Below, in pieces: positions 6,843 through 60,297 of a stretch of DNA of 64,000 nucleotides. The stretch is from Chloracidobacterium validum (GTDB lineage: Bacteria; Acidobacteriota; Blastocatellia; Chloracidobacteriales; Chloracidobacteriaceae): contig NZ_CP072649.1 in assembly GCF_018304825.1 (NCBI RefSeq), forward strand, positions 930,001 to 994,000, read 5' to 3'. How positions within the stretch are numbered: position 1 is the stretch's first letter; the number at the start of each line of letters is the position of its first letter. Position numbers and translations under genes: made by a program. Below the pieces are notes generated by a model. That model was given only the letters and a program-made list of their open reading frames with translations, searched no databases and was not told the DNA's origin.

Positions 6843-9761
6843 TCACAAGTGGCTGTCCTGGAACAGTTTCTTGAGCATGTTCAGATAAGCTTGGCGATGC
6901 TGGCTGGCTTCGGCGGTGTTTCCGGTCCGGATAAGCGCCTGGATGAGCAGTGGTTTATGGTTCAGTGACTCGGTGCCTTCCTGCGCACGGAAGCGACGCG
7001 CGAGGGCAAGCAATTTGGGTGGATTGGTCAATCCTAACGCTTGTTTATCCAGATAGATTTCAGCGGCTGCATACAAGGTTGCCGATGACACAGGGTCTGT
7101 TTCAGCTCGCGCCAACCACTGCATCAAAGACGACTTGACCGCCTCGGCTGCACGCTTTTCTCCAAGGTACTGGTAGGCCATCAGCAGCACATACCGGTAA
7201 TGCGCCCGCTGCGTGTCATCTGGTAGCTTGACCAACTCGGCCTCGAGCCGGCGCGCCGCAGCGCGCGCCAACGACGGCCGCCGGCACGGCACGGCTAGCC
7301 GGATGAAGTTGGATGGCACGCTCAACGACAGGTTATCCACCTCGCGTCCGCTGCAGCCGGCGGCCTGTATCTTTTGAAGACAAGTTTCAATCCGTTGCCA
7401 CTGGACAAGCGCCAAATCGGGGCGGCCGGCAGCTTCCTCAAGCATAGAAAAGCGGCTGAGCAAAGAAGCCATATCAAACAAAAGCTCACGATTGGTGGTG
7501 TCTTCGGTCACCAGCGCCTGAAACTGCTTGAACACTTCCTCAAACTGGATGCGCGCAGTTGGGTATTGTTTCAGTCTCCCGGCAAGGTCAGCTTCATCCA
7601 CTAGACTATCCAGAACCGAACGGCGACACTCGACGGGCACCGGATTGGTCGTCGCCAGACTCCGGCGGAGGGCCAGGGCCTGCCGATGCAGAGGGAGCGC
7701 ACGGGCATATACCATCTGCGCTTCCGAGGCGAATCCACTGTTTTCGGCCTGGCGACCCAAACTCATCAAGCAATAGACTTTACGCTGTAAAGCGCCGGCG
7801 AACGTCCGCCGGTACGCGACCGCTGCCGGCATGTCGGCCACCAGCCGCTCGAGCTGCTGCCGAGCTTGCTCAAACCAACCTAACGCAGCCGAGAGATCGG
7901 ACTGCATGTGGTACCAGTCACCCCAGGCAATGGATAGCGTAGCCCTGAGGTATCGGATTTCCGGATCACTCGGTTGCGCCTTGGTCAGGGTCTCGCAGAG
8001 CGCTTGGGCGCGATCCAAGTGATGACGGGCAACCGGGAAATTACCCAGGCGATACATCATCAACTCGGCGATCCGTTCATGGCCGATGCTCAGTTCACGT
8101 TGACATTCAACCTGGGTAGGGTGCGCCTGACATGCCCGCTCCAACCACATCAGTCCGGTTTGGTAGCTCTTGAGTGCGCCGTTGACGTCGCCTAGGTTAG
8201 CAGTATAGGGACGCCCCTGAACCTCCCCGACGCGGATGTACGCGCGCCCCAGTTCACGGTGAAACATGGCATCTGTTCCGGACTCGCGGCTGAGGCGGTC
8301 GAGATAACCAAGGGTCTGTTCAACCAGGAGACCACGGGCGCCGGTCGAACCCGGTAAGCGTTGGATGGCGTCGTGCAGCTCAAAAACATTCGAGCGCGCC
8401 AGTTGCCAGGTTTCCTGAAACTGTCGTTCGGCACGCACCTGCGCTTGGCGAGCCAGATGTGCCTGGCGGAGTGAGACGGTCGTTGCTCCGGCCAGCGCCA
8501 CAATGGAAGCTAGGCTGAGCGCGACGGTGACCCGGTGGCGGCGCAGGAACTTTCGTAGCCGGTAACGCGCCGATGCGCCACGCGCCAGCACGGGCCAACC
8601 TTGCAAGTAACGCTCGATGTCAGACGAAAACTGTTCCGCTGAAGCGTAGCGGGCCGTTGGGTCTTTGTGCATGGCGCGGAGGATGATGGCATCCAGGTCT
8701 CCGGCCAGCTCCCGACTGCGCGCCATTCGGTCTTCGGTTGCCTGGGTTTCAGGTGGCGCGTCCGTAGCTTGTTTCCGGGGCGGAGCTGGCTTGCGCGCCG
8801 CCACACTGGGCGGCAGGGGTTCGGCATGTTGAATGAGATATTCCAATGAGGGCGCCCCTTCGGTGGTCTGAAACGGCAGACATCCCGTGAGCAATTCATA
8901 GAGCACTACCCCCAGGGAATACACATCCGAGACGGTCGTCACCGGTTCACCCCGGACTTGCTCCGGGCTGGCATAGGGCAAGGTCATGGCGCGCTGCACG
9001 GTGGCCGTGTGCAGCTCCGACGCCTGCGCTTGTTCATCCAGTAACTTGGCAATCCCAAAATCAATGAGCTTTGGAACGCCGTCATCGGTCACCAGGATGT
9101 TGCCCGGCTTGAGGTCACGGTGGATGACCAGGTTTTGATGCGCGTAATGAATAGCGGCGCAAACCGACTGAAACATTTCAAGCCGCTGCCGCAAGGTGAG
9201 CCGGCGCTGTTCGCCATAGGTGGTGAGTGGGATGCCGGGGACATACTCCATGACGAAGAAGGGCAGGCCGTTGTCAGTCGTGCCACCGTCGAGCAGCCGA
9301 GCAATGTTGGGGTGTTCGAGCCGAGCCAGGATCGCCCGTTCCTGCTGCAACCGGCGCTGCAGGAAATCACGATTGGAAGCAAACTGGTGGCCAATCTTGA
9401 TGGCGACCTCTTTTTCAAACGCCGCATCATCCCGAACGCCCAAGTACACCGTCCCCATGCCGCCCACGCCCAGCTCGCGGACAATGCGGTAGTCACCAAC
9501 CTTCGCGCCAATCCAAGAGGCTGCCTGCCGGGAAGCCAGGGCGCGTAAAGCATATCCAAACAGAGGCGAGTCGCTAAAATGCCAACCGGCTTCATCCGAC
9601 TCATAGGCATCGAGCAGCGCCAGGACCTCGCGGCATAGGCTGGGGCGATCGCCACAAGCGTGAATGATAAAGGGACGGCGCGCCGGCGGATCGAGGTCAA
9701 TGGCTTGCTGCAGAATTTCGTTGACCTGCATCCAGCGGTCGTTGGACAAGTCGGTGGCCAT
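6843..9761 (-). CDS. Transmembrane Ser/Thr protein kinase with C-terminal TPR-like region
   Basis: 972 residues from the ATG at 9761, preceded by AGAGG. A cytoplasmic PASTA-less kinase domain spans about residues 91-385. It has the glycine loop GVGGMG, the ATP-binding lysine K122, the catalytic HRD at 214-216, DFG at 234-236 and the YASPEQ activation-segment motif, so it should be active. One transmembrane helix lies near residues 411-431. The remaining 540 residues are helical, TPR-like repeats, presumably outside the membrane. It starts 46 bp after an ECF sigma gene on the same strand, an arrangement typical of Acidobacteriota, so sigma factor and kinase are probably co-transcribed. Phosphorylation of or signalling to the sigma factor is inference. 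Confidence 0.92.
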   Translation of the reverse strand: MATDLSNDRWMQVNEILQQAIDLDPPARRPFIIHACGDRPSLCREVLALLDAYESDEAGWHFSDSPLFGYALRALASRQAASWIGAKVGDYRIVRELGVGGMGTVYLGVRDDAAFEKEVAIKIGHQFASNRDFLQRRLQQERAILARLEHPNIARLLDGGTTDNGLPFFVMEYVPGIPLTTYGEQRRLTLRQRLEMFQSVCAAIHYAHQNLVIHRDLKPGNILVTDDGVPKLIDFGIAKLLDEQAQASELHTATVQRAMTLPYASPEQVRGEPVTTVSDVYSLGVVLYELLTGCLPFQTTEGAPSLEYLIQHAEPLPPSVAARKPAPPRKQATDAPPETQATEDRMARSRELAGDLDAIILRAMHKDPTARYASAEQFSSDIERYLQGWPVLARGASARYRLRKFLRRHRVTVALSLASIVALAGATTVSLRQAHLARQAQVRAERQFQETWQLARSNVFELHDAIQRLPGSTGARGLLVEQTLGYLDRLSRESGTDAMFHRELGRAYIRVGEVQGRPYTANLGDVNGALKSYQTGLMWLERACQAHPTQVECQRELSIGHERIAELMMYRLGNFPVARHHLDRAQALCETLTKAQPSDPEIRYLRATLSIAWGDWYHMQSDLSAALGWFEQARQQLERLVADMPAAVAYRRTFAGALQRKVYCLMSLGRQAENSGFASEAQMVYARALPLHRQALALRRSLATTNPVPVECRRSVLDSLVDEADLAGRLKQYPTARIQFEEVFKQFQALVTEDTTNRELLFDMASLLSRFSMLEEAAGRPDLALVQWQRIETCLQKIQAAGCSGREVDNLSLSVPSNFIRLAVPCRRPSLARAAARRLEAELVKLPDDTQRAHYRYVLLMAYQYLGEKRAAEAVKSSLMQWLARAETDPVSSATLYAAAEIYLDKQALGLTNPPKLLALARRFRAQEGTESLNHKPLLIQALIRTGNTAEASQHRQAYLNMLKKLFQDSHL

Positions 9762-9807
9762 GGGGGATGACCTCTTCAGACTTGGGCTAGGTGGTAGATG
9801 TCTGAAC

Positions 9808-10449
9808 TCAAACGGTGGATGAAGCAGCAACGGGGCTGGATTCAAGCCGGCGGCCGGCACCGTTCAGGAGCCGTTGCATCCACGCGCGAGACAGCGCTAG
9901 GTTTCGATTCGCCGTGCGGAGTGACACCCCGAGCGTCGTGGCAATCTCTTGATTGGTGAGACCACCGAACGCATGCAACTCGAAGACGCGCCCAAGGTGC
10001 GGGTCATGCGCTTCCAAGTGCTGCAGGGCTTCATGCAGGGCCAGAATTTCCGGGATGGGAAGCTCCTTCGCTGGCCACTGTCCGTCGAGCTGAGCTGGGC
10101 GGTTGCCCGCGCCACGCTTGGCAGATGTGGCAGCGCGGGCGTAATCCACGAGAATGTGTCGCATGACGCGACTCGCCAGGCTGAAGAATTGCTGCCGGTC
10201 GGTCACGCTGACGCCTTTGCAGTTGGCAAGCCGGAGGTACACCTCGTGAACCAGCGCCGTGGTTTGCAGCGTATGACCAGGCTGCTCACGCCGCATGTGC
10301 GCGTGCGCCAGATGGCGTAGCTCGGCATATACCTCTTCAATGAACTGGCTGAAGGCAACTTGACCAGTGGGTGGCGTAAAACATCGATTAGGAGCATCAG
10401 CCGGAGTCTTGGGAGGATTGGCTTTTCGGAGCGTCGTAGCGTTGGGCAT
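9808..10449 (-). CDS. ECF-type RNA polymerase sigma factor (acidobacterial Sig-70_X6-like)
   Basis: 213 residues from the ATG at 10449; the longer frame to 10527 adds an unlikely N-terminus. Region 2 is seen in the stretch from FIEEVYAELRHLAHAHMRRE through TALVHEVYLRL to the MRHILVDYARA promoter-melting helix. Region 4 is the helix-turn-helix around LTNQEIATTLGVSLRTANRN. The HMRRE and ALVHEVYLRL motifs are typical of the sigma family that is fused to or adjacent to Ser/Thr kinase genes in Acidobacteriota and Planctomycetes. It precedes the transmembrane kinase by 46 bp. No anti-sigma gene is visible, which fits control by the kinase in place of an anti-sigma, though this is inferred. Confidence 0.93.
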   Translation of the reverse strand: MPNATTLRKANPPKTPADAPNRCFTPPTGQVAFSQFIEEVYAELRHLAHAHMRREQPGHTLQTTALVHEVYLRLANCKGVSVTDRQQFFSLASRVMRHILVDYARAATSAKRGAGNRPAQLDGQWPAKELPIPEILALHEALQHLEAHDPHLGRVFELHAFGGLTNQEIATTLGVSLRTANRNLALSRAWMQRLLNGAGRRLESSPVAASSTV

Positions 10450-14425: not shown

Positions 14426-15847
14426 TCACTGGTCGAGGGCTTCGAGCGCCTTGCGCCGGCGGCGCTCACGCTCACTCACGCCGGACTGGTCCTTGCCAGT
14501 GCGCTTTGGTGGTTGTTTTTTGGGCGCGACTTCTTCAGACGTACTGGGCGGCTCTGGGCTGATGACGCCGCCGCTCCGTGGTGGCAGAACATCGGGAATC
14601 AAGACGCCCGGTGGGTCAGACCGAGATGGTGGAGGAACCTCTAGGGGATCCCTCTCCGGTGGGGGTAACGCAGTGTTTGTAGCTGGTGGAAGTGATATGG
14701 CTTCTTCATGGCTTGGCGGCTGGGAAGCTGCCGGGGTACGACTTTCCGGTACGGCCCCGCCGCGATGCACCCACACATAAGCCAACGTTGCCAACACAAA
14801 TACCAAGGCCGCGACACCGGCGAGACTCCACGCAATCACCTTGAGCCAAACATCACTTGATTTGGTAGCAACGACCGGACTCGGGGGGAGTGCCGTTTGG
14901 TGAAACGGTGGCAGCATCTTGCTGGCCGCGGGCGATGGGCTGGGCGGTGGGCAAATCGGAGATGTCAGTCCGTTGGATGTACCTGAGAGCGATAACGCCA
15001 CACGCACATCGCTTGGTATGGCAGCTAGGCTGGGAGTGGTTGCGGCAACCAGCGCCAGTTTGAATTCGCCTGCCGTCTGAAAACGCCGATTAGGGTCTTT
15101 TTCAAGGGCCCGCAAGACAACCTGTGCGACGATTTCGGGTATGTCCGGGGTAAAAACACGCGGCGGCGGTGGTGAAGCCTGAATATGGGCCTGGAGCAAG
15201 GCATACTCACTATCTGCGGCAAACGGCACCCGCCCCGTCAGCATTTCATACAGCAAGATGCCAAGCGAGTAGATGTCGCTGCGAGCGTCGGTTTCTTTTC
15301 CCTGAATTTGTTCGGGCGACATATATTCGAGTGTGCCGACGATTGCGCCAACGCGCGTCTGATGACTGCTGCCCAACGCGCGTGCAATGCCGAAGTCCAT
15401 GACTTTAGGCGTCCCGTCCGGCAGCACCATGACATTGGACGGCTTGATGTCACGGTGAATGATGCCTTGCCGATGGGCATGGCCGATGGCGTCCAGGACG
15501 CCGGAAAAGAGCGGCACAGCCATGGGTAGTGGCATCGCCCCGCGCTGTTGCAGCAATGTCTCCAGCGAAGTGCCAGGCAGAAACTCCATCACCATGGCAA
15601 ACTGCTGATTGCCAATCGGCAGGAACCCATAGAGCGTCGCAATGTTTGGGTGATTCAGCTTCCCTAACAGCACGGCCTCGGTGCGAAATCGCTCAATAAG
15701 CTGCGGGTTGGCGACCAGTTCGGGTTTGAGCACTTTGATGGCCACCGGACGGTCGAGCATCACATCCACGCCTTGGTACACCGTGCCCATGCCCCCAGTG
15801 CCGAGGCAAGCGGTGACGCGGTAGGTTCCAATCACACTGCCAATCAC
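14426..15847 (-). CDS. Transmembrane Ser/Thr protein kinase
   Basis: 473 residues starting at a GTG that overlaps the phosphatase stop in the sequence GTGA, which implies translational coupling; GAGGGT lies just upstream. The kinase domain covers about residues 8-270: glycine loop GTGGMG, ATP lysine K38, catalytic HRD at 131-133, DFG at 151-153 and the YMSPEQ motif, all intact. A Ser/Pro-rich segment leads to one transmembrane helix near residues 350-378. A Pro-rich tail outside the membrane ends in a basic stretch. Together with the PP2C phosphatase and FHA protease genes just upstream, it forms a phosphorylation cassette. Confidence 0.94.
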   Translation of the reverse strand: MIGSVIGTYRVTACLGTGGMGTVYQGVDVMLDRPVAIKVLKPELVANPQLIERFRTEAVLLGKLNHPNIATLYGFLPIGNQQFAMVMEFLPGTSLETLLQQRGAMPLPMAVPLFSGVLDAIGHAHRQGIIHRDIKPSNVMVLPDGTPKVMDFGIARALGSSHQTRVGAIVGTLEYMSPEQIQGKETDARSDIYSLGILLYEMLTGRVPFAADSEYALLQAHIQASPPPPRVFTPDIPEIVAQVVLRALEKDPNRRFQTAGEFKLALVAATTPSLAAIPSDVRVALSLSGTSNGLTSPICPPPSPSPAASKMLPPFHQTALPPSPVVATKSSDVWLKVIAWSLAGVAALVFVLATLAYVWVHRGGAVPESRTPAASQPPSHEEAISLPPATNTALPPPERDPLEVPPPSRSDPPGVLIPDVLPPRSGGVISPEPPSTSEEVAPKKQPPKRTGKDQSGVSERERRRRKALEALDQ

Positions 15848-16701
15848 GACCCTACCCTCACTTCTCGGGTTTCGCGTGGAACGGCGGGTGACGGAACGTC
15901 CACATGCGAAGCCCCGTTCTGATAGGACGCCCACACGATACCAACGGTCACGTTGTCCGGGCCACCACGTGATCTGGCCAACTCAACCAACCGCTGGCAC
16001 GCTTCCTCTGGCGCTAGTTCATGCGCAAGCGCACGCATCTCGTCGTCAGTGACTAAGTCATGCAGTCCATCTGAAGTCAGTAAAAACCGGTCGCCGCAGC
16101 ACACTCGGAGCGGACGCTGCCACAGACTTGGCGTGAGGTCTGGTTTTGTCCCAAGGGCTTTGAGTAAGACATTTTTCTCTGGATGCTGCTCGGCCGCGGC
16201 GCGCGTCATTCGCCCTGCGCGGACATAGGCCATGACCTCTGAATCGTCTTCAGTCATCTGGTAGATGCTGCCGTCTCGAACCAAATACAGACGAGTATCA
16301 CCAACGTGGGCGGCAAAGGCCTCGTCGCCCCGGATGACGAGCGCCGTGCAGGTCGTGCCCATGCCACGGAGCGCTGGACGACGTTGAGCCGTTTCCCAAA
16401 TCATGCGGTTGGCCTCGACAAATGCCTGGCGTAGAACCGCCTCTGGTTCGCCCGATTCGGCGTAATACACATGGCGCACAATCTCGGCGGCCATCTGGCT
16501 GGCGATTTCACCACCGACGTGGCCGCCCAGTCCGTCGGCAACCAATGCCAGCATGCCTTTGCGCGCGGCTTCCAAGCTTGTAGGCGGTGGGCTTTCATAA
16601 AGCGCAAAGTCTTCGTTGACTTGGCGCCGACAGCCGACATCGCTCAACATGGCGATTGTCAACTTTGGATACGTAACGGAAACATTACCTACGCTCCGCA
16701 T
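15844..16701 (-). CDS. PP2C-family Ser/Thr protein phosphatase (PrpC/Stp1-like)
   Basis: 285 residues, ATG preceded by AAGGAG. Metal-dependent phosphatase that would reverse the action of the co-encoded kinase. The family motifs appear in order: DVGCRRQVNED (residues 21-31), the metal-binding ADGLGGHVGGE (about 55-65), GMGTTCTAL, HVGDTRLYL, LLTSDGLHDLV and the final GGPDNVTV. The start follows the protease gene by 30 bp, and the stop overlaps the kinase start by three bases. No transmembrane segment is visible, so it is cytosolic. Confidence 0.95.
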   Translation of the reverse strand: MRSVGNVSVTYPKLTIAMLSDVGCRRQVNEDFALYESPPPTSLEAARKGMLALVADGLGGHVGGEIASQMAAEIVRHVYYAESGEPEAVLRQAFVEANRMIWETAQRRPALRGMGTTCTALVIRGDEAFAAHVGDTRLYLVRDGSIYQMTEDDSEVMAYVRAGRMTRAAAEQHPEKNVLLKALGTKPDLTPSLWQRPLRVCCGDRFLLTSDGLHDLVTDDEMRALAHELAPEEACQRLVELARSRGGPDNVTVGIVWASYQNGASHVDVPSPAVPRETREVRVGS

Positions 16702-43057: not shown

Positions 43058-43528
43058 ATGACCGAACAAGCATATTTCAGCCATAGCCCGGAAGAAACGT
43101 TCACCCTTGGCTACAGGCTGGGGCAACGCATTGCGGCGTGGACTGACCCAAGCGGACGGGTGGTCTGGCTCAGGGGCGACCTGGGCGCCGGAAAAACGCA
43201 CTTCGTGAAAGGCTTGGCTTCCGCGTTCGGCATCCTGCCGGAAGACGTCACCAGCCCAACCTTTGCGCTTGCGCAAGCGCACGCCTTCCAAGGTGGAACC
43301 CTATGGCACGTGGACCTCTATCGCTTGCCGGCCGGGTCACTAATTGCCGACGCGATTGGGCTGGATGAGATGCTGACGCAACCCGGCGTCCTGGCCATCG
43401 AGTGGCCGGAACGACTTGGGCCTGGTTTCTTGGCTCACCACCCAACATGGCAGGTTGAGATTGACAGCTTGGATGATACGCGACGGCGGATCATCATCCG
43501 GTCACCCGACGCTGGTGGCCTAGGCTGA
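43058..43528 (+). CDS. tsaE: tRNA threonylcarbamoyladenosine biosynthesis ATPase TsaE (YjeE)
   Basis: 156 residues. Partner ATPase of TsaB-TsaD in making t6A37 on ANN-decoding tRNAs. The Walker A motif is GDLGAGKTHFVKGL, followed by the conserved VTSPTFAL segment, the HVDLYRL Walker B-like motif and the VLAIEWPERLG segment typical of TsaE. I chose the ATG at 43058 because the longer frame lies inside the preceding terminator; no good ribosome site is visible. Its 3' end overlaps the convergent FHA gene by 9 bp. tsaB and tsaD are not adjacent. Confidence 0.93.
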   Translation: MTEQAYFSHSPEETFTLGYRLGQRIAAWTDPSGRVVWLRGDLGAGKTHFVKGLASAFGILPEDVTSPTFALAQAHAFQGGTLWHVDLYRLPAGSLIADAIGLDEMLTQPGVLAIEWPERLGPGFLAHHPTWQVEIDSLDDTRRRIIIRSPDAGGLG

Positions 43529-44266
43529 TTCTTCAGCGTTGGACTCATCAATTTCGCGTAACGTATCCAGTGTCAGGCTCGTATTGCTGCTGGCCGTAAT
43601 CGTCACCGGGAAGGGTGTCATCGAGCGTTCGACATCAAAAAAACCTTCCGCGAAGGTTACGAACTTGCGAAAGGCGGCCAGGCCACACAAGCCACCAGCC
43701 TCACAGGTTACGATGAGGCCTTCATTGAAACCGAGCCAGCCATGGCCCTGCGGACCGCGCACGCTGAAGGCCGCCGTCAACCGATTGGCTTCGATGACCT
43801 GGATGACATCAAAAACCGATATTCGGCTCAGATCGCCCGTCAGAAACTTTGACCCACTGCGCAGCGGCAGCACGAACACGCAGGTGTGCGCCCCAATCGT
43901 GAAACGGTCGCCATCGGACAACAGGCAACGTTCGTGTGGCAGGAGACGCCGCCCGTTGAGGAACGTTCCATTCGTACTCTCCAGATCAATCAGAAAGTAG
44001 CGGACGCGCGCCTCACTGCCTGTTCCCAGATCGAGGACGACCTTGGCGTGCTCACGCGAAGCCACCGCATCACTTGCCAATGAAATCGTTGCGGTCAGTG
44101 CGCGACCGATGACCGTGGTGGGGGTGTCGAGGATATGCGTTTGCTTGACGGTGCTGCCTTCCAAAACGATCAAGGTGGCAAATCCGACAGATGACGTGAC
44201 GTTCTTTAGCGCCTCTACGTCGAGCTGAGCGGTCTTGATTGTCGGGACTTCAACCTCTTCCGACAT
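43520..44266 (-). CDS. FHA domain protein with C-terminal DUF4388 (PATAN-like) domain
   Basis: 248 residues; AGGAG precedes the ATG. The FHA domain (about 25-125) has the TVIGRALTATISL strand, the SREHAKV phosphopeptide loop and ESTNGTFLNGRRL. The C-terminal module (about 130-240) starts with LTGDLSRISVFDVIQVIEAN, matching the DUF4388 family of cyanobacterial PatA-type and acidobacterial response regulators. The first half would read Thr phosphorylation by the genome's many kinases; the second probably mediates protein interaction. It follows suhB on the same strand. Confidence 0.88.
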   Translation of the reverse strand: MSEEVEVPTIKTAQLDVEALKNVTSSVGFATLIVLEGSTVKQTHILDTPTTVIGRALTATISLASDAVASREHAKVVLDLGTGSEARVRYFLIDLESTNGTFLNGRRLLPHERCLLSDGDRFTIGAHTCVFVLPLRSGSKFLTGDLSRISVFDVIQVIEANRLTAAFSVRGPQGHGWLGFNEGLIVTCEAGGLCGLAAFRKFVTFAEGFFDVERSMTPFPVTITASSNTSLTLDTLREIDESNAEESA

Positions 44267-49111: not shown

Positions 49112-52100
49112 CTAGCGACCAACTTTCGCAATCGCCATCGTGACCGACGACCTCGTGGTGGCTTCCAGGACACGGGGCAGCGTGATGGTGAAGCGACTTC
49201 CCTGCCCGGCGCCGTCAGAGGCCGCCTCGATCAGACCGCCGTGCGCGTCAATGTAGCTTTTGGCAATGGTGAGTCCCAGCCCCGTGCCGCGTGCATTGAA
49301 CTCGAATCGCCCGGATGAATGCCGCGAGGTGTCACGCCCGGTGTAAAATCGCTCGAAAACGTAAGGCAGGTCAGGAGCTTCAATGCCAATGCCCGTGTCG
49401 GCAACGTCCACGGTGACGCATTCTTCATCACCCATCACCGTGACGGCGATTTCACCTCCATCCGGCGTGAACTTGATGGCATTTTGAATCACGTTGAACA
49501 GTGACAGGCTGAGCTTGTGGGCATCGGCTTCGATGCGCGTATCACCACTGACGGTCAAGGTGACTCGCTGGTGGCGCTTGGTGATAAAGACGCTCACTTC
49601 CTCCAGGATGTCACGGACAACCGCTTCAACCATCACCGGCCCGCAGTCAAGACCAATGTAGCCCTCCTGGATTTTGAGAACTTCAAAGATGTCTTCAACG
49701 ATCCTGGCAAGCCGGTCGGTGGTTTTCAGGCAGGTCATGAGCGCCGACTGCTGCCGGTCGGTGAGTGGGTCAAACGTGCCAAACGTCAACGCCTCGATGA
49801 AGCCCTTGATGACGGTCAGGGGCGTCCGCATCTCATGCGAGGTGACCGCGAGAAAGTTATTCTTCATCACATCGAGTTCCTGCAGCCGGGCGACGACCTC
49901 TTGCTCGCGCCGGTAGAGCTTTTCAGCCGTTTCAGCCGCTTCGCGGAGCTGGCGGTTGATGGCGGCATTCTCGATGGCCACGGCCGCCTGGTGCGTCAAG
50001 CCCTCCACCAACTCACAATCCTGCTCGGTGAACGGCACACGCCCAGGCGGCCGCCGGATGTCTAGCACGCCAATGGTCACGCCATCCCGATTGCGGATGG
50101 GTACGTCGAGAATACCCTCCAGATGATAGCGCTCTAGCAACTCCGGGTAGCGAATGTCTGGACAGTTCCGAACGTCATTGACAATCCGCGCCTGTCCAGT
50201 TGCGGCGACGCTCCCCGCAATGCCTTCGCCAAGGGGGAAGGTCAACTCGCTATGCTCCCAGCTTCGGGTTTGCGTGTTCCAAATGTGGCGCAGCACCAGC
50301 ACGCCGTCCTCAACTAAGCCAATCCCCCCAGGTTCCCCGCCAATGAGGGACGCGCTCTCGGAAGCAATTTTCCGGAGCACCTCACCGACATCGAGCGTTG
50401 AGTTGATGACTCGCGTGCTATCGAGCAACTGCCGCAGGGCAGCAATGCGCGCTTCCTGATTGCGGCGAATTTGACGCACCCGGAAGTCATACACGGCGTA
50501 TCCAAAGCCAAAAATTGCCACTACGTACAGGACATAGGCCCAAGGCTGACGCCAGGGAGCGGCCTGAATGGTGAAGGTCAGCGTCGCGGGTTTGGTGACT
50601 TGGCCCTGGGCGTCCCGCGCCCACACCTTGAGCGTGTAGGTTCCCGGCGCCAAGTTGGAACAGTCGCGTCGCCCACGCGCCGTCCAGGCCGTCGGCTCCT
50701 GGTCGTAAGGAATGAGTTGCGTTTGGTATTCCACTTCACCACTGCGCCGTAAAACCGGTAGGGTGTATCGAAACGCAAGGTCACGCAGGGTATGGGGCAA
50801 AGGACGGCCGGTTCCCAGCTCCCCAAGCCAATCATCGGGAGCGATCATTTCGAGCAGCAGTTGTCCAGGTGGTTCGACCGGGGCGTCGTAGCCCGTATCC
50901 AGCGCTGCCAACCCGCGCACGGTTCCCACCCAGACTCGTCCCTGCGCGTCACAACTGAAGCGCCCGAAGTTACACTCATTACTGGGGAGTCCATCTTCCG
51001 ATGTGAACATCACCAAGGCGCGGCGATCCTGCTCGGCGACGGCATCCAGCGCAAGACAAACAACACCTCGATTTGTGGTAGCCCACAGCCGGCGGCGGCT
51101 ATCTTCCAGCAGGTGATACACCACATTGTTGGGCAGTGCCGGACTGGTTTGGGTGTTGAGTTGATCAACGATCCGGGGCGGATCGCTGGGTTCAAGGCAG
51201 ACCAGTCCGCCGCCCTGCAATCCGCACCAGAGCCGCACCTGGCCGGCGGCGTCAGTTGTCGCATGCAAGGCGTTGACCATTGGGCGACCACTCAGCCCAA
51301 ACTCGAAACGTTTCCATTCCTGTCCGACACGGTAAGCAACCCCGTGGTCCAGTCCAGCCCAGAGCCGCCAAGGGCCATCGGGCGCGCCCTCGGGATTGGG
51401 CGTTTCTGCCACGCTGTACACAGCTTCATTCAACCCCAGTGACTCGCCTTCCGGCAGGTCGAGCCGTACGGACCTCAGGCCCTGCTCAAGTCCGACGTAG
51501 AGATGCTCCGGCAACGAACGCGGCTGGTAAAGGCAATGGACATGCGCATCTGGTGGAATAGCCTCGACCTGCGCGGCGCGGGGCGCAGGGCTGTCCGCCA
51601 ATCGCCAGAGGCCATTGGCGGCAGTTCCAATCCAGAGGGTGCGCTGCTTGCCGCGGGTTGTCGTCAGCAGGGTTCGGACATTCCGAGCCTGAAAGCCTTG
51701 GCGCTGGTCAAACGTCGTCCAGTCCCCCCGCTGCCATCTGGACAAGCCGGCCAGGGTGCCCGCCCAGAGGGTCTGTGCGCCATCCGGCTCAGACCAGACT
51801 TCCGCGCACCACGCCATATTCGATGGCAACCCAGATGTTGTGGAAACCGACCACCAACCACCGTGGTGCAGGTAAGTCACCCCACCGCCGCCGCCCTGGC
51901 CAATCCAAACACCACCACTCCGCGGTTGACTCACGAACAGCGACCGGACGATGTCGCTGGGCAAATCGCGTGGGGACACAAAGCGCCGCCACTGATTGGC
52001 GCGCTGCCAGTACAGTCCCTGATTCGTGCCGACCCAGACCATCGGCGAGCCATCCGGCGCTTCAGTTTCAAGTATCGCGTTGATGGTGATCTTGGCCAGA

Positions 52101-53023
52101 TCAGGCGCATCAATCAGCGTCACCTGTGGGCGCGCGCCCTGCACCCGGCTGAGGCCCTGAAGCGTGCCAACCCAGATCGTGTTGGAGGACTCGCCATCGG
52201 ACAGACAGGTAATGTGATTCGAGGGTAGCCCATCCACTGTGCTGAGATGGTCCCATCGGTTGGCTCCAAGTTGATGTCGCCACAAACCTTGCTCTTGAGT
52301 CCCGACCCACAGCCACGCCGGGCCAGACGGGCTGGCGGCAAGCATCAGACACCGGATGGCGATGCCTTCCAATGAAGCCGCAAAGGCTGGGCGCTCCCAG
52401 CGGTCTTCCCGGAAGAGCAGGAGTCCGTCGCGCGTCCCAACCCACAATCCGCCACCAGTGGTTCCCGGCGCGGCCAACAGGCAAGTCACCGTGTTGGCCC
52501 GTTCGTTTCCGAATGAAAAAACCTTCCACTGTTGGGCTGGGTAGGTGGATGGATTGTAGCGACAGATTCCATTTGGCGTTGCAAACCACACGCCTTCCGA
52601 TGTGACGGCCAGGGCAGTGACGAAGTTTGAGCCAAGTGCTCGCGGAAGCGCGACCGGGGTCCAGGTTCGCCCGTCGAAATAGGCGGCGCCGTCTTGAGTC
52701 GCCGCCCAGAGCCGCCCCTGTAGGTCGCGCGTCAGCGCCTGGATGGAGTTTTGCGGAAGCCCTTCCTGGTCTGTATAACTGCGTATCGCTGGCTGGGCGA
52801 TGCTCAATGGCGAGCGGTTCGTCAGCGGCGTCAAGTTGGATGGTGACGACACCGGCGGGGGCTGTCTGGTTTGCGCCGGCACGATGGCTCCCACCCCCCA
52901 CACACCAACCAGCAGCAGCCACAAGTCACATGATAGCAGCCGCCAAGAGGCCGGCCGCCAACGATGTGACGCCAACCAATGCGCCGGAGCATGAGTCAGT
53001 GTTTTCCGTAGAAAGGTACCCAT
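49112..53023 (-). CDS. Reg_prop (two-component propeller) sensor histidine kinase with GAF domain
   Basis: 1303 residues from the ATG at 53023. An N-terminal hydrophobic segment targets a large periplasmic part made of Reg_prop blades (repeated LWVGT-x-x-GL and WxGT motifs, to about residue 720) and a Y_Y_Y domain. One transmembrane helix (PWAYVLYVVAIFGFGYAVYD) leads to a coiled coil, a GAF domain, a HisKA domain with the phospho-accepting histidine near residue 1063 (VTSHEMRTPLTV) and an HATPase with N box NVIQNAIKFT, DTGIGIE and GTGLGLTIAKS. It has no C-terminal receiver or AraC domain, unlike the Bacteroides hybrids. The divergent receiver-DUF4388 gene 267 bp away is the likely partner. 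Confidence 0.93.
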   Translation of the reverse strand: MGTFLRKTLTHAPAHWLASHRWRPASWRLLSCDLWLLLVGVWGVGAIVPAQTRQPPPVSSPSNLTPLTNRSPLSIAQPAIRSYTDQEGLPQNSIQALTRDLQGRLWAATQDGAAYFDGRTWTPVALPRALGSNFVTALAVTSEGVWFATPNGICRYNPSTYPAQQWKVFSFGNERANTVTCLLAAPGTTGGGLWVGTRDGLLLFREDRWERPAFAASLEGIAIRCLMLAASPSGPAWLWVGTQEQGLWRHQLGANRWDHLSTVDGLPSNHITCLSDGESSNTIWVGTLQGLSRVQGARPQVTLIDAPDLAKITINAILETEAPDGSPMVWVGTNQGLYWQRANQWRRFVSPRDLPSDIVRSLFVSQPRSGGVWIGQGGGGGVTYLHHGGWWSVSTTSGLPSNMAWCAEVWSEPDGAQTLWAGTLAGLSRWQRGDWTTFDQRQGFQARNVRTLLTTTRGKQRTLWIGTAANGLWRLADSPAPRAAQVEAIPPDAHVHCLYQPRSLPEHLYVGLEQGLRSVRLDLPEGESLGLNEAVYSVAETPNPEGAPDGPWRLWAGLDHGVAYRVGQEWKRFEFGLSGRPMVNALHATTDAAGQVRLWCGLQGGGLVCLEPSDPPRIVDQLNTQTSPALPNNVVYHLLEDSRRRLWATTNRGVVCLALDAVAEQDRRALVMFTSEDGLPSNECNFGRFSCDAQGRVWVGTVRGLAALDTGYDAPVEPPGQLLLEMIAPDDWLGELGTGRPLPHTLRDLAFRYTLPVLRRSGEVEYQTQLIPYDQEPTAWTARGRRDCSNLAPGTYTLKVWARDAQGQVTKPATLTFTIQAAPWRQPWAYVLYVVAIFGFGYAVYDFRVRQIRRNQEARIAALRQLLDSTRVINSTLDVGEVLRKIASESASLIGGEPGGIGLVEDGVLVLRHIWNTQTRSWEHSELTFPLGEGIAGSVAATGQARIVNDVRNCPDIRYPELLERYHLEGILDVPIRNRDGVTIGVLDIRRPPGRVPFTEQDCELVEGLTHQAAVAIENAAINRQLREAAETAEKLYRREQEVVARLQELDVMKNNFLAVTSHEMRTPLTVIKGFIEALTFGTFDPLTDRQQSALMTCLKTTDRLARIVEDIFEVLKIQEGYIGLDCGPVMVEAVVRDILEEVSVFITKRHQRVTLTVSGDTRIEADAHKLSLSLFNVIQNAIKFTPDGGEIAVTVMGDEECVTVDVADTGIGIEAPDLPYVFERFYTGRDTSRHSSGRFEFNARGTGLGLTIAKSYIDAHGGLIEAASDGAGQGSRFTITLPRVLEATTRSSVTMAIAKVGR

Positions 53024-53290: not shown

Positions 53291-54004
53291 ATGAAGAAAC
53301 TTCTCGTTGTTGAAGACGACCCACTGATTCGCCAATCCGTAGCCCTCGCGCTCCAGGCGCAAGGGTTTCACGTTGCCACGGCTGAAGACGGGAGCGCCGC
53401 CCTCAAGCAGCTCGGCACCGACCAAGTGGACGGTATCGTCTGCGACATTGCCATGCCCAGCATGGATGGTATCGAGTTGTGCCGGACACTACGCCTTGAC
53501 GCCCGAACAGCGCGCATTCCGTTTCTTTTCCTGAGCGCTTATCAGGGCATTGAAGACCGTCTGCAAGGCTTATCCGTCGGCGCGGACGACTTTCTCGGCA
53601 AGCCCTTCAGTCTTGAAGAACTGGTTTATCGAATCAACCGGCTGCTGACCAACCAGCAGCAACCCCTGGTGAACGACAGTCTCGATGTCAACCCTAACCA
53701 CCTTGGCCAAGTTTCTTTTGAACAGGCGCTGGATTTGATTTGCTCCCATCAGTTGAGCGGTTTGTTGAACGTCATCCTCAGTGATAACGCGGTCGGACAG
53801 GTGTGGTTTGAAGACGGGCGCTCAGTTGCCGCCAAGCTTGAGTCAGCCAGCGGCGAGACATTGTTGGAAGCGTCCGCCGCGTTGGAGCATATCCTGCGGG
53901 CACCGCGTACCTTCTTTCACTTTTCTGGACAACAAACCCTTGATAATGCCGTTCTCGTGAGCCGGATCACGCGCATTGTCGAGTCTGAATTCGTCCGGGG
54001 CTAA
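53291..54004 (+). CDS. Response regulator with receiver and C-terminal DUF4388 domain
   Basis: 237 residues. The receiver (1-122) has the complete acceptor site: D9, D10, phospho-acceptor D52 (VCDIAMPSMDG), S82 and K104 (GKPFS). The rest (about 135-235) is a DUF4388/PATAN-like module (GQVSFEQALDLICSHQLSGLLNV ... GQVWFEDGRSVAAKL). It has no DNA-binding domain, so output is probably by protein interaction, as in PatA-type regulators. It is divergent from the Reg_prop histidine kinase. Confidence 0.93.
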   Translation: MKKLLVVEDDPLIRQSVALALQAQGFHVATAEDGSAALKQLGTDQVDGIVCDIAMPSMDGIELCRTLRLDARTARIPFLFLSAYQGIEDRLQGLSVGADDFLGKPFSLEELVYRINRLLTNQQQPLVNDSLDVNPNHLGQVSFEQALDLICSHQLSGLLNVILSDNAVGQVWFEDGRSVAAKLESASGETLLEASAALEHILRAPRTFFHFSGQQTLDNAVLVSRITRIVESEFVRG

Positions 54005-56390: not shown

Positions 56391-59300
56391 TCAGGGCAGG
56401 CTTGATTCATCAGCAATCAGGGTCGGAGCAGCTTCGGGGGGAGTGCCTTGATGGGTCACACGGGCGGGCGGCAAGCTGGGCGACACGGTAAGGTTTCGAT
56501 GCGTTTTGAGTCCGTGGTCGCCTGTATCCGCACCAAGGGGGAGGGTCGGCCGCTCGATGGCCTGGGTTACATCGTCACTCGTCGACTCGTCTGTAAAGCT
56601 TCCGCTCACGTGCTGGATGACCTCAACCAATCGTGTCCCCAGCTCGGCGGCTGATGGACGCAGTGCCGGGTCTTTCGACAGGGCTTGGTTGACGAGTTCA
56701 ACAACGCCCGCCGGAAGCTCCGGCACGAACTGGCGGAGTGGCGGGGGCGTAACATTGAGATGGGCCAACAGCACAGCAAAGGGGTTGCCATCGGTCGCCG
56801 GAAACGGCAGATGCCCGGCCAGCATCTCATAGGCCATGACGCCAACACTGTAAACGTCGGATTTTCCGTCGTAGGGCTGGCCGGCAACCCGCTCCGGGGC
56901 AACATAGGTTGGCGTGCCGATCACAGCCCCCGTGGCAGTGAGGTCATCCTCCCCACGTCCGGCACCGATCAGCTTGGCGATGCCGAAATCCACGACTTTG
57001 ACAATCTCGCCCCGTGGCGTCTGATGAAGAAAGACATTGTCCGGCTTGATGTCGCGGTGGACGATGCCCTGCCGGTGGGCCTCATCCAACGCCCGGCACA
57101 CGGGAATCAACAGGCTGACCACCCGGCGCAGGGGTAAACGTCCGCACAGCTCGTGCCTGAGTGAATGTCCGGTCAGTAGCTCCATGACCAAATAGGCGAT
57201 GCCATCCTGTGACAGCCCGGAATCCATGACACGCACAATGTTTGGGTGATCAAGCCGCGAAATGGCGACGCCTTCCCGGCGGAAGCGCTCCAGGGCCTCG
57301 GCACTATCGTTCCCGGCAATGGGCTTGAAAACCTTGACGGCAACCGCATAGCCAAGGGTAAGGTGCGTTCCCCTGAAGACAGCGCCAAATCCACCCGCGC
57401 CGATTTTTTCATCGAGTCGGTATTTGTCGTCGAGCGTCGTTCCAGGCAGGGCATCCGCCAGGGCGGAAAACATGCGGTCGGCGCGGCGCTGGGAAGCGAT
57501 CAACTCGGCATTGCGGGCTTCGAGTTCACGGTTGCGCTCAGCGAGTTGCTGCGCGGCTTGCGCCTGCACTGCGGCGGCCTGGGCCTGGGCTTCAGCCGCC
57601 TGAGCGCGGGCGTCCGCGGCATCCCGCGCAGCCTGCGTGGCTTGCATCTGAAGCTGCGCTTCGCGCCAGGCAGCTTGGGAGCGCCAGCGGCGCACCTGCA
57701 ACTGGTAAAGCCCAAGCACCAGCCCCAGGCTGGCAACCGTGTAGAGCGCGTACGCCCAACCGGTGCGCCAAAAGGGCGGAAGAATGCGCAGGCGGAGACG
57801 AACGCCCTGGTCATTCCAGACACCGTCGTTGTTGGCGGCGCGCACCTGAAAGACATAGTCCCCTGGATCCAGATTCGTGTACCCGGCATAACGCCGGGTG
57901 CCGCACAACACCCAGTCTCGGTCAAAGCCCTCCAGCCGATAGGCATACTGGTTCTTTTCAGGCGCGATGAAGTTCAGCGCGGCAAACTCGAAGGCAAAGA
58001 AGTTCTCCCGGTGGGTCAACGTCACCCCCCGCGCAGCATCGAAGTCTGCCGCCGGACGGTCAAAAATCCGAAAACTGGTGATGGCAACGGGTGGGATGAA
58101 AGCGTTGTCCACGAGCTGGGATGGGTGAAACGAGAAAAAACCGGCGGTGGTGCCCATGTGTAGCCAACCGTCCGCGCTCCGCCATCCCGCAGCCGTGCTG
58201 ATTTCGTTGGAGGGCAGCCCATCGCGGAGGTCATAGGTGCGGCAAGTTTCCGTTTCCGGGTCAAACCGGCAGAGTCCGTGGTTTGTGCCAAGCCAAAGAT
58301 GGCCGGCCTCATCTTCCAGGATGACATTGATGACGTTGTTGGGCAGCCCCTGGGCCGTCGTGTAGCGAACAAAGGTTCGATGGTCGGGCTGGAAGCGATT
58401 GAGTCCGCCTGGCGTCCCGGCCCACAAGCTTCCCTTCCGGTCGAGATGCAGTGCCAGAACCCAATCGTGGGTCAAGCTATCGGGGCGGGATGGATCATGC
58501 CAATAGTGGTCTTCCTGCCGGGTTTGGGGCTGCCATCGGAATAAACCGCGCTCCGTGCCCAGCCAGAGCGCGCCGGTTGGATCTTCCTGAATGGCCCAAA
58601 TGGCGTCGCGTCCCGGTTCGTCAGGACGGCGCGGCCGCCGGTCAACCACCCGTTGGGTTGGTGGGTCAACCCGGTCAAGTCCGCGCTGCGTCCCGACCCA
58701 GAGTTCACCGGCGCGGGTTTCGCACAACGCATGGACCCAATCGTCACTCAAGCCATCGGCTCGACCGGGTTGGTGGCGAAGGGAGGTAAATCGGTTGGCC
58801 GTGGCGTCAAGGCGATGGAGTCCGCCCTGCTCGGTGCCTGCCCAGAGCGTGCCATCCCGCGTTGTGAGCAACGCTCCCACGATGCCGTGGTTGAGTTGGC
58901 CGGGGCGGTGGTCAGCCAAGTAGTGACGGATGCCCCCCTGGGGATCAAGGCAGTTCAGGCCCTGGTTGGTTCCAACCCAGAGGTTGCCGCGCCGGTCTTC
59001 CGTGAGTGACCAGACCAGCCCATCACTGAGGCGGTCACCCCGGTCCGGGTTGGCGTCATGAATGGCGAAACGCCCCTCGACCATTTGGTTGAGTCCGCCG
59101 AAGTCAGTCCCAATCCAAACCGTTCCGGCCTGGTCACGCACGAGTTGCCAAATGAAGTCATGCCCAAGCGACGTTGGCTGCCGGGGGTTGTGGCGGAAGT
59201 GCGTGAACCGCCCGCCATCGTTTTCGGTTTCTAGGCGGCTGAGTCCGCTGCCCCACGTCCCAACCCACAGGCGGCCCCGGGCGTCTTCGACCACGGCGCG

Positions 59301-60155
59301 CGTTTGGTCGCTGGCAAGGCTATCTGGCCGCCGAGGATCATGGCGAAAGTGCGTCACCCGACCCCGGTCTGGCTCATAGCAGGTCAGTCCCTGCCCGACG
59401 AGCCAGAGTTTTCCCTGGCGGTCAAACTGAAGCGCGAGAACTCGTTGACCGACGAGCGCCGGGGTGAACTTCCCGCTGGACGGGTCGAACCGGCACAGGC
59501 CGCCATTCGTGCCGAGCCACAGTGTTCCCGTGGCGTCTGGGACGATGGCGCGGATGACATTGAGACTTTCCGCCAGGCCGGAGTCGTCCTGGTAGGGGAA
59601 GCGGGTGAAGCGCTCCCCTTCCCAGCGATGCAACCCATGTGGCGTCCCAACCCATAAGCCGCCGCGCGCATCGCAGCCGAGCGCCGTGATGCGGTCGTGC
59701 GCAAGGCTCTGGGGGTCTTCCGCCCTGGCGTAAAAGCGGGTGAAGACCTGGCGCACCGGGTCATAGCGATTGAGACCGTGCTGGGTGCCAATCCAGAGTC
59801 CGGTGGGGGTGGCGCATAACGCCGTGATGTAGTTGTCGCTCAGACTCGCGGAGTGGGTTGGGTCAGCGCGAAAGGTTTGAAACGTATAGCCATCGTAGCG
59901 ATTGAGGCCGTCCTGCGTGCCAATCCACAGAAAGCCTTGATTATCTTGCGTGAGGCACTGCGCGGTGCTCTGAGAGAGACCCTGTCCCGTTGAAAGCCGA
60001 ACGAACGTCGTTGGCGGTGGATGTGACCGCGCCCAGGCGGTCACGGTCAATCCCGCCAGTAGCCCACACGCGCCAAGCAGGACGTAACGGAGTCGGCGCC
60101 AAACAAATGGCAGTGGATGACCAAACAGCCTTGGTCGAGCGATCACGAACGGCAT
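56391..60155 (-). CDS. Reg_prop propeller sensor fused to a cytoplasmic Ser/Thr protein kinase
   Basis: 1254 residues from the ATG at 60155. A hydrophobic N-terminal segment is followed by about 690 residues of Reg_prop blades (repeated LWVGTxxGLNRxD and DxxGxLWxGT motifs), a Y_Y_Y domain and one transmembrane helix (WAYALYTVASLGLVLGLYQL, about 800-820). An Ala/Gln-rich coiled coil leads to a Ser/Thr kinase (about 905-1175), not a histidine kinase. Glycine loop GAGGFG, AVKVFK lysine, HRD at 1033-1035, DFG and the YVAPER segment are intact. A disordered Pro/Thr tail ends the protein. The architecture links an extracellular or periplasmic sensor of the two-component type to Ser/Thr phosphorylation. 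Confidence 0.93.
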   Translation of the reverse strand: MPFVIARPRLFGHPLPFVWRRLRYVLLGACGLLAGLTVTAWARSHPPPTTFVRLSTGQGLSQSTAQCLTQDNQGFLWIGTQDGLNRYDGYTFQTFRADPTHSASLSDNYITALCATPTGLWIGTQHGLNRYDPVRQVFTRFYARAEDPQSLAHDRITALGCDARGGLWVGTPHGLHRWEGERFTRFPYQDDSGLAESLNVIRAIVPDATGTLWLGTNGGLCRFDPSSGKFTPALVGQRVLALQFDRQGKLWLVGQGLTCYEPDRGRVTHFRHDPRRPDSLASDQTRAVVEDARGRLWVGTWGSGLSRLETENDGGRFTHFRHNPRQPTSLGHDFIWQLVRDQAGTVWIGTDFGGLNQMVEGRFAIHDANPDRGDRLSDGLVWSLTEDRRGNLWVGTNQGLNCLDPQGGIRHYLADHRPGQLNHGIVGALLTTRDGTLWAGTEQGGLHRLDATANRFTSLRHQPGRADGLSDDWVHALCETRAGELWVGTQRGLDRVDPPTQRVVDRRPRRPDEPGRDAIWAIQEDPTGALWLGTERGLFRWQPQTRQEDHYWHDPSRPDSLTHDWVLALHLDRKGSLWAGTPGGLNRFQPDHRTFVRYTTAQGLPNNVINVILEDEAGHLWLGTNHGLCRFDPETETCRTYDLRDGLPSNEISTAAGWRSADGWLHMGTTAGFFSFHPSQLVDNAFIPPVAITSFRIFDRPAADFDAARGVTLTHRENFFAFEFAALNFIAPEKNQYAYRLEGFDRDWVLCGTRRYAGYTNLDPGDYVFQVRAANNDGVWNDQGVRLRLRILPPFWRTGWAYALYTVASLGLVLGLYQLQVRRWRSQAAWREAQLQMQATQAARDAADARAQAAEAQAQAAAVQAQAAQQLAERNRELEARNAELIASQRRADRMFSALADALPGTTLDDKYRLDEKIGAGGFGAVFRGTHLTLGYAVAVKVFKPIAGNDSAEALERFRREGVAISRLDHPNIVRVMDSGLSQDGIAYLVMELLTGHSLRHELCGRLPLRRVVSLLIPVCRALDEAHRQGIVHRDIKPDNVFLHQTPRGEIVKVVDFGIAKLIGAGRGEDDLTATGAVIGTPTYVAPERVAGQPYDGKSDVYSVGVMAYEMLAGHLPFPATDGNPFAVLLAHLNVTPPPLRQFVPELPAGVVELVNQALSKDPALRPSAAELGTRLVEVIQHVSGSFTDESTSDDVTQAIERPTLPLGADTGDHGLKTHRNLTVSPSLPPARVTHQGTPPEAAPTLIADESSLP

Positions 60156-60297
60156 GATGAACCCAGGAATAGCAACCCTGCGCCGGCACGACATGGCCGG
60201 AAGCAGTTGACGACCTGACGGCAAGCGCGTCGCTACCGGCCCCAAGAGCCGATAGCCACGCGCCTGTGGAAGGGCCCAGCGATGCCGTTTTCCGCCT

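Follow-up and report, generated by a model that had tools for sequence, protein, structure and literature searches.

A two-component-type propeller sensor fused to a Ser/Thr kinase in Chloracidobacterium validum, and the family to which it belongs

The window analyzed here, a 64,000-nucleotide stretch of the Chloracidobacterium validum genome, carries on its minus strand a gene (positions 56391–60155) that joins the propeller sensor of hybrid two-component systems (HTCS) to a Hanks-type Ser/Thr kinase. What is new is that an established sensor type carries a Ser/Thr kinase as its output; the gene is one of a large family, seen in a single order only. A first-pass annotation, made from the letters of the window, had read the gene as a Reg_prop, Y_Y_Y and transmembrane sensor followed by an intact Ser/Thr kinase, and this description was borne out by the reading frame, Pfam, the Protein Data Bank (PDB) and structure models.

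The receptor kinase gene is a single open frame from ATG to stop (1254 codons), supported as a whole by Pfam and by orthologs, with a possible alternative start at an upstream TTG at 60245. A Pfam scan of the 1254-residue product returned Reg_prop (E 1.4e-60), Y_Y_Y (2.3e-18) and Pkinase (1.8e-49), and no HisKA, HATPase_c, receiver, AraC-type DNA-binding or PASTA match; the kinase sits C-terminal. Residues 44–798 (57762–60026), comprising a Reg_prop double propeller and the Y_Y_Y domain (residues 729–791; 57783–57971), matched BT4663 (4a2l) over the whole sensor length in a PDB sequence search (E 5e-106), and residues 905–1167 matched PknA (E 5e-50). Two hydrophobic segments, both assigned by eye from the sequence, would place this sensor in the periplasm: residues 21–42 (60030–60095), a signal peptide or first transmembrane segment, and a transmembrane segment at about residues 800–821 (57693–57758). 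The kinase domain (residues 912–1172; 56640–57422), identified by Pfam, by PknA in the PDB and by fold, contains the Gly-loop, VAVK, HRDIKPDN, DFG and APE motifs. It is preceded by a signature, SQRRADRMFSALADALPGTTLDDKY (residues 888–912; 57420–57494), defined by a pattern and an alignment of related fusions, and followed by a fast-evolving, Thr-rich tail (residues 1181–1254; 56394–56615).

In a fold search, an AlphaFold model of the full-length protein (33 aligned sequences; residues 33–1188; mean predicted local distance difference test score (pLDDT) 84.6; predicted template modeling score 0.61) matched 4a2m/4a2l (best E 1.8e-65, TMt 0.82–0.84) and PknA, with 39–42% identity to PknA in the kinase fold matches. 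A second model, restricted to the transmembrane segment, linker and kinase (49 sequences; mean pLDDT 89.4), predicts an unbroken helix from the membrane to the kinase (model residues 12–114). This helix corresponds to residues 799–901 (57453–57761) and takes in the transmembrane segment, a coiled-coil linker and the start of the signature.

The unusual domain order might be a chimera produced by misassembly, or two genes joined by a sequencing error, and its absence from the literature that we searched would speak for such an artefact. Full-length orthologs without stops are nevertheless present in two other genomes of the genus (G434 and G437; ~73% identity over nearly the whole length), and pairwise dN/dS values against them, calculated with our own Nei-Gojobori script, were 0.14–0.16 for the sensor and 0.09–0.10 for the kinase (0.13–0.16 and 0.09–0.11 over all comparisons), indicating purifying selection on both halves. 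Only the C-terminal tail is more variable, at 42–55% identity. With 68 genes of this architecture in 11 genomes (below), the orthologs and the selection rule out an artefact, to which we assign a negligible probability. Across the genus, the gene is intact in 3 of 7 genomes and interrupted in one (G157), where an IS607-like element, judged by eye from its translations to consist of a serine recombinase and TnpB, lies in the sensor part (C2:653982–656013; L235 8983–11014). No ortholog was seen in the remaining three (G114, G435 and G436), two of which, G435 and G436, are draft assemblies.

The sensor is used repeatedly in this genome, which has 74 Reg_prop matches, 17 Y_Y_Y matches (15 above the cut-off) and 45 kinase matches (42 above the cut-off). 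Of the 17 propeller-sensor genes that we counted, 8 carry a SpoIIE phosphatase (one found by Y_Y_Y alone), 6 a Ser/Thr kinase and 2 a histidine kinase, and the last has an AAA-type output whose AAA match is below the curated cut-off. The annotation's proposal that one sensor type serves both Ser/Thr and His phosphorylation chemistries thus holds for the genome as a whole. The AAA-type gene (L038 102–4211; C1:1877957) encodes a Reg_prop sensor and a carboxypeptidase-regulatory domain ahead of the output. A candidate eighteenth sensor, C2:344205, was rejected, as its Y_Y_Y score is below the cut-off and by eye it is a carboxypeptidase-regulatory/TonB-type protein.

Searching across genomes, as the annotation had suggested, recovered the architecture many times. 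Each of the 10 family genomes has at least one long-frame match running from sensor to kinase, and selected loci yielded at least 68 distinct fusions in 11 genomes (27 in G063, 15 in G051, 6 each in G000 and G339, 4 in G157, 3 each in G114 and G438, and one each in G434, G435, G436 and G437), a lower bound based on a Reg_prop-like letter pattern and our own kinase profile, not on Pfam. The total includes the 3' part of the interrupted G157 gene and a few copies truncated by the edge of a locus or contig. The Gly-loop, VAVK, HRDxKPxN and DFG patterns are present in 68 of 68, and APE in 67. The pre-kinase signature is found in 63 of the 68 by a loose pattern; among 49 aligned copies, five residues (F, A, G, K, Y) never vary and five more (L, L, P, T, L) are conserved in at least 90%. 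A Thr-hydrophobic-hydrophobic pattern (for example APTLI), picked after inspection of the tails, occurs in 37 of the 66 C-terminal tails (two fusions are tailless), against 19.7 expected from shuffles; it is no more than suggestive of possible autophosphorylation and FHA-docking sites.

We then asked how widely the fusion is distributed, using a profile that runs from Y_Y_Y to the kinase N-lobe. It matched 229 of 396 sampled Acidobacteriota genomes at 1e-25, and among the matches listed (up to six candidates scored per genome) there were 30 single matches spanning sensor and kinase and 2 split ones. The single spanning matches fall in at least 6 of the 396 genomes, all of the window's order; a seventh sampled genome of the order, G259, had none among the matches listed. 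In 38 further genomes, chosen for similar kinases from 80 loci of a two-kinase-motif scan in which matches start at query residue 116 or later and none reaches the sensor, the profile found sensor matches in 10 and no spanning match; four of the 38 are Acidobacteriota (L069, L089, L099 and L141). A longer profile agreed on both genome sets among the matches listed, with three candidates scored per genome in the set of 396. The fusion has so far been seen in one order only, which leaves room for independent fusions elsewhere, built from less similar parts.

To place the kinase half, a quick tree of 66 kinase domains was built, leaving out L160, L179, the short second kinase in L044 and a side hit in L187; the own-genome kinase at C2:699192 had no match to the kinase profile and was likewise not included. 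All 20 fusion rows fell inside one starred set of 34 (Shimodaira–Hasegawa-like approximate likelihood ratio test 100), together with 12 receiver-linked Ser/Thr kinases of other Acidobacteriota (L045–L050, L052, L053, L055, L056, L051 and L054) and 2 other kinases of the own genome. Response_reg and Pkinase were confirmed by Pfam in all five receiver-linked kinases scanned, of which one also has HisKA and one PAS domains; the other seven were labeled by letter pattern. Since this clade holds both receiver-linked and propeller-linked kinases, the lineage evidently takes either input. The pre-kinase signature is recognizable in 8 of the 12 receiver-linked kinases, indicating that the helix serves different inputs. 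The tree needs four changes for the fusions, of which the starred branches force only one.

PAS domains lie between receiver and kinase in L051 and L054, and L047 has HisKA upstream in the same frame; such receiver-kinase fusions might connect phosphorelay directly to Ser/Thr phosphorylation. A small member of the clade was also observed, a kinase in a 403-residue frame (L167 1836–3044; C1:588862) with a helical stretch before the kinase, in which no receiver or sensor domain was found; a second genome has a match in a 404-residue frame (G114:C1:789968–790339). Two more Ser/Thr kinases in the window (6843–9860 and 14426–15934) have the kinase domain on the N-terminal side and lie outside the receptor-kinase clade.

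Sensors and outputs have been exchanged. On a tree of 16 own-genome sensors (S_1200, a truncated locus, was dropped), the four outputs require six changes, and the starred branches force at least three for the kinase and three for SpoIIE. Shuffled output labels gave as few as six changes in 29 of 200 trials; six is therefore not clearly fewer than random, and is compatible with free exchange of outputs. The kinase-linked sensors do not form one clade (approximately unbiased (AU) test, p-AU 1.5e-46). Consistent with exchange, among 65 fusions (three with short sensors were left out), the nearest sensor and the nearest kinase belonged to the same partner for only 21, and the correlation between sensor and kinase similarity was weak (Spearman 0.21).

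A tandem pair at C1:954–961k (L031 669–7986) shows the boundary between the two halves. Its members share 1148 bp at 99.56%, a stretch that sets in only a few bases from where the transmembrane segment begins, and their sensors are 32% identical, so that sensor and output act as separate modules. In the G157 tandem pair (L182), the shared stretch is 1161 bp long, 98.3% identical and bounded at almost the same point, yet from one genome to the other kinase identity is only ~83–84%, and each sensor is 71–73% identical to its ortholog. The simplest reading is repeated gene conversion confined to the output halves, by which two inputs stay connected to a single output.

The mixing of outputs on related sensors could also mean that the kinase and SpoIIE receptors form one writer-eraser network, in which related sensors toggle the same Ser/Thr sites as in partner switching. 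The 6 kinase and 8 SpoIIE receptors do have interleaved sensors, as illustrated by K_1050 and S_351 (41% identity). The usual substrates of SpoIIE phosphatases, however, are STAS proteins that received their phosphate from RsbW-type kinases, not sites of Hanks-type kinases, and the genome has only four STAS matches. We regard a shared network as unlikely.

The window holds a second propeller-sensor gene on the minus strand (49112–53023), which had been described as a sister of the kinase gene with the same sensor linked to GAF-HisKA-HATPase. The domains were confirmed by Pfam (Reg_prop, GAF, HisKA and HATPase_c; Y_Y_Y at 25.5 bits, just below the curated 26.6), whereas "same sensor" proved loose, as the two window sensors are only 27% identical. 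Closest to the histidine-kinase sensor are three kinase-linked ones (30–31%), with which it forms a starred clade (100/100). The window kinase sensor comes closest to that of the kinase K_1018 and to two sensors linked to SpoIIE (36–41%; support for the group 88/84, not starred), and a starred set of eight sensors holds it and excludes the window histidine kinase. A tree forcing the two window sensors together as sisters was rejected (p-AU 1.6e-7).

That the two genes are nevertheless a matched pair, passing one signal through two chemistries, would suit their spacing of 3.4 kb and their common general sensor type. The sensor tree, the AU test and synteny led us to reject it as very improbable. 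In G157 their orthologs lie at C2:653–659k and C2:781–785k, ~122 kb apart. Their presence patterns also differ: the histidine-kinase gene occurs in 7 of 7 genus genomes, and in the five others checked it adjoins a REC-DUF4388 gene and an NADH dehydrogenase-like gene. In the window this REC-DUF4388 gene (53291–54004, plus strand; DUF4388 barely above its Pfam cut-off) is divergent from the histidine kinase, and the conserved synteny (5 of 5) makes it the likely partner. The suggestion that both window genes read related signals accordingly finds no support in their identity, their separation in G157 or the separate regulator. The same small domain occurs in an FHA-DUF4388 protein of the window (43520–44266), so that DUF4388 is shared under a phospho-Thr reader and a phospho-Asp receiver.

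We favor, as rather probable, a one-protein receptor kinase in which a propeller ligand alters the dimer, the helix relays the change and the kinases activate in trans. The double propeller and Y_Y_Y would bind a ligand in the periplasm, probably an oligosaccharide or another envelope-derived polymer, and thereby change the geometry of a receptor dimer. Lowe et al. reportedly proposed, in 2012, a closing movement for the BT4663 sensor; a similar movement in the dimer may rotate or shift the long helix pair. The change would pass through one transmembrane helix into the continuous cytoplasmic helix ending at the conserved signature, which would set two Hanks-type kinases in register to phosphorylate each other's activation loops. 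PknB-type kinases activate in trans. The kinases would then phosphorylate cytoplasmic targets on Ser/Thr, some of them probably read by FHA proteins; the genome has 23 FHA domain matches. The expanded family would have arisen as sensors were swapped on a single type of kinase module. In the consulted parts of the source, the HTCS propeller sensors of Bacteroides are described as binding oligosaccharides (PMC3243724).

Alternatively, instead of sensing free ligand, the propeller may be a platform for docking or for envelope status, its partner being a protein, peptidoglycan or lipopolysaccharide; PorZ, which contains Y_Y_Y, would be the precedent. The PorZ papers reportedly mention a propeller, Y_Y_Y and lipopolysaccharide delivery (PMC5121618, PMC8545088), and dozens of divergent sensors per genome would suit many protein partners. 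Against this, among solved folds the sensor most resembles, along its full length, the HTCS sensors BT4663 and BT3049, and a docking role is in our estimate a minority possibility.

Several points weigh against the receptor-kinase reading itself. The full-length model splits the helix in two, with a pLDDT of 42–51 in the block of residues 833–902, and the signature is missing from four of the 12 receiver-linked kinases (L050, L052, L055 and L056). The putative glycan ligand is assigned by homology alone, and no polysaccharide-utilization locus caught the eye in the window genes read, although none was specifically searched for. The gene is dispensable, since it was not found in three of the seven genus genomes and is broken in a fourth. 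Finally, the kinase clade is poorly resolved inside, so that a single origin of the fusions is no more than a possibility.

The sensor-kinase family, with up to dozens of versions per relative, looks like a separate invention of receptor kinases. More tentatively, and as a possibility on which we would not yet lean, it may be the order's own receptor-like kinase superfamily with a logic as in plant receptor kinases: a kinase lineage that also takes REC input would have gained propeller sensors of the two-component type, multiplied to at least 27 copies in one genome and diversified by sensor exchange while its effector halves were homogenized, giving a broad signaling layer in which the part played elsewhere by histidine kinases falls to Ser/Thr phosphorylation. 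In a single genome, one outside-sensor type is combined with Ser/Thr kinases, histidine kinases, SpoIIE phosphatases and, probably, an AAA-type protein. Such a natural set lends itself to the questions of how transmembrane signaling becomes independent of output chemistry and whether the helix signature is the adaptor. It also provides a candidate receptor class, with an established sensor fold, for organisms that have numerous kinases but few inputs assigned to them.

We found no description of the Reg_prop/Y_Y_Y/Ser/Thr kinase architecture in the open-access literature searched, as far as the consulted portions of those sources go, the search being confined to open access. In the sections consulted, a 2005 survey of prokaryotic kinase architectures lists WD and PQQ propellers on kinases without mention of this sensor (PMC1262709), and a Solibacter paper handles the kinases of that organism as a group of paralogues, the word propeller being absent from the main text (PMC3174227).

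Among known systems, transmembrane transcription regulators with Y_Y_Y have the same sensor domain and DNA binding as the output, according to the portion of the source consulted (PMC10269533). The HTCS of Bacteroides (BT4663 and BT3049; Reg_prop-Y_Y_Y-HisKA-HATPase-REC-AraC) share with the window protein the whole periplasmic sensor, Y_Y_Y, the transmembrane segment after it and the one-protein receptor design, and the window sensor matches, from end to end, the periplasmic region of BT4663, which senses heparin. In place of their histidine kinase, receiver and DNA-binding domain, however, the window protein has a Hanks-type kinase. With the transmembrane Hanks-type kinases PknA, PknB and StkP it shares the catalytic domain and all its motifs. 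The kinase of PknB is N-terminal, whereas the window protein has its sensor N-terminal and its kinase C-terminal, and lacks a PASTA match. The receiver-linked Ser/Thr kinases of other Acidobacteriota belong to the same kinase clade, mostly with the signature helix (8 of 12), but their input is a receiver domain rather than a membrane propeller sensor. The propeller SpoIIE phosphatases of the same genome come close in another way, with a related sensor, Y_Y_Y, a transmembrane segment and a helical linker, yet carry the opposite chemistry.

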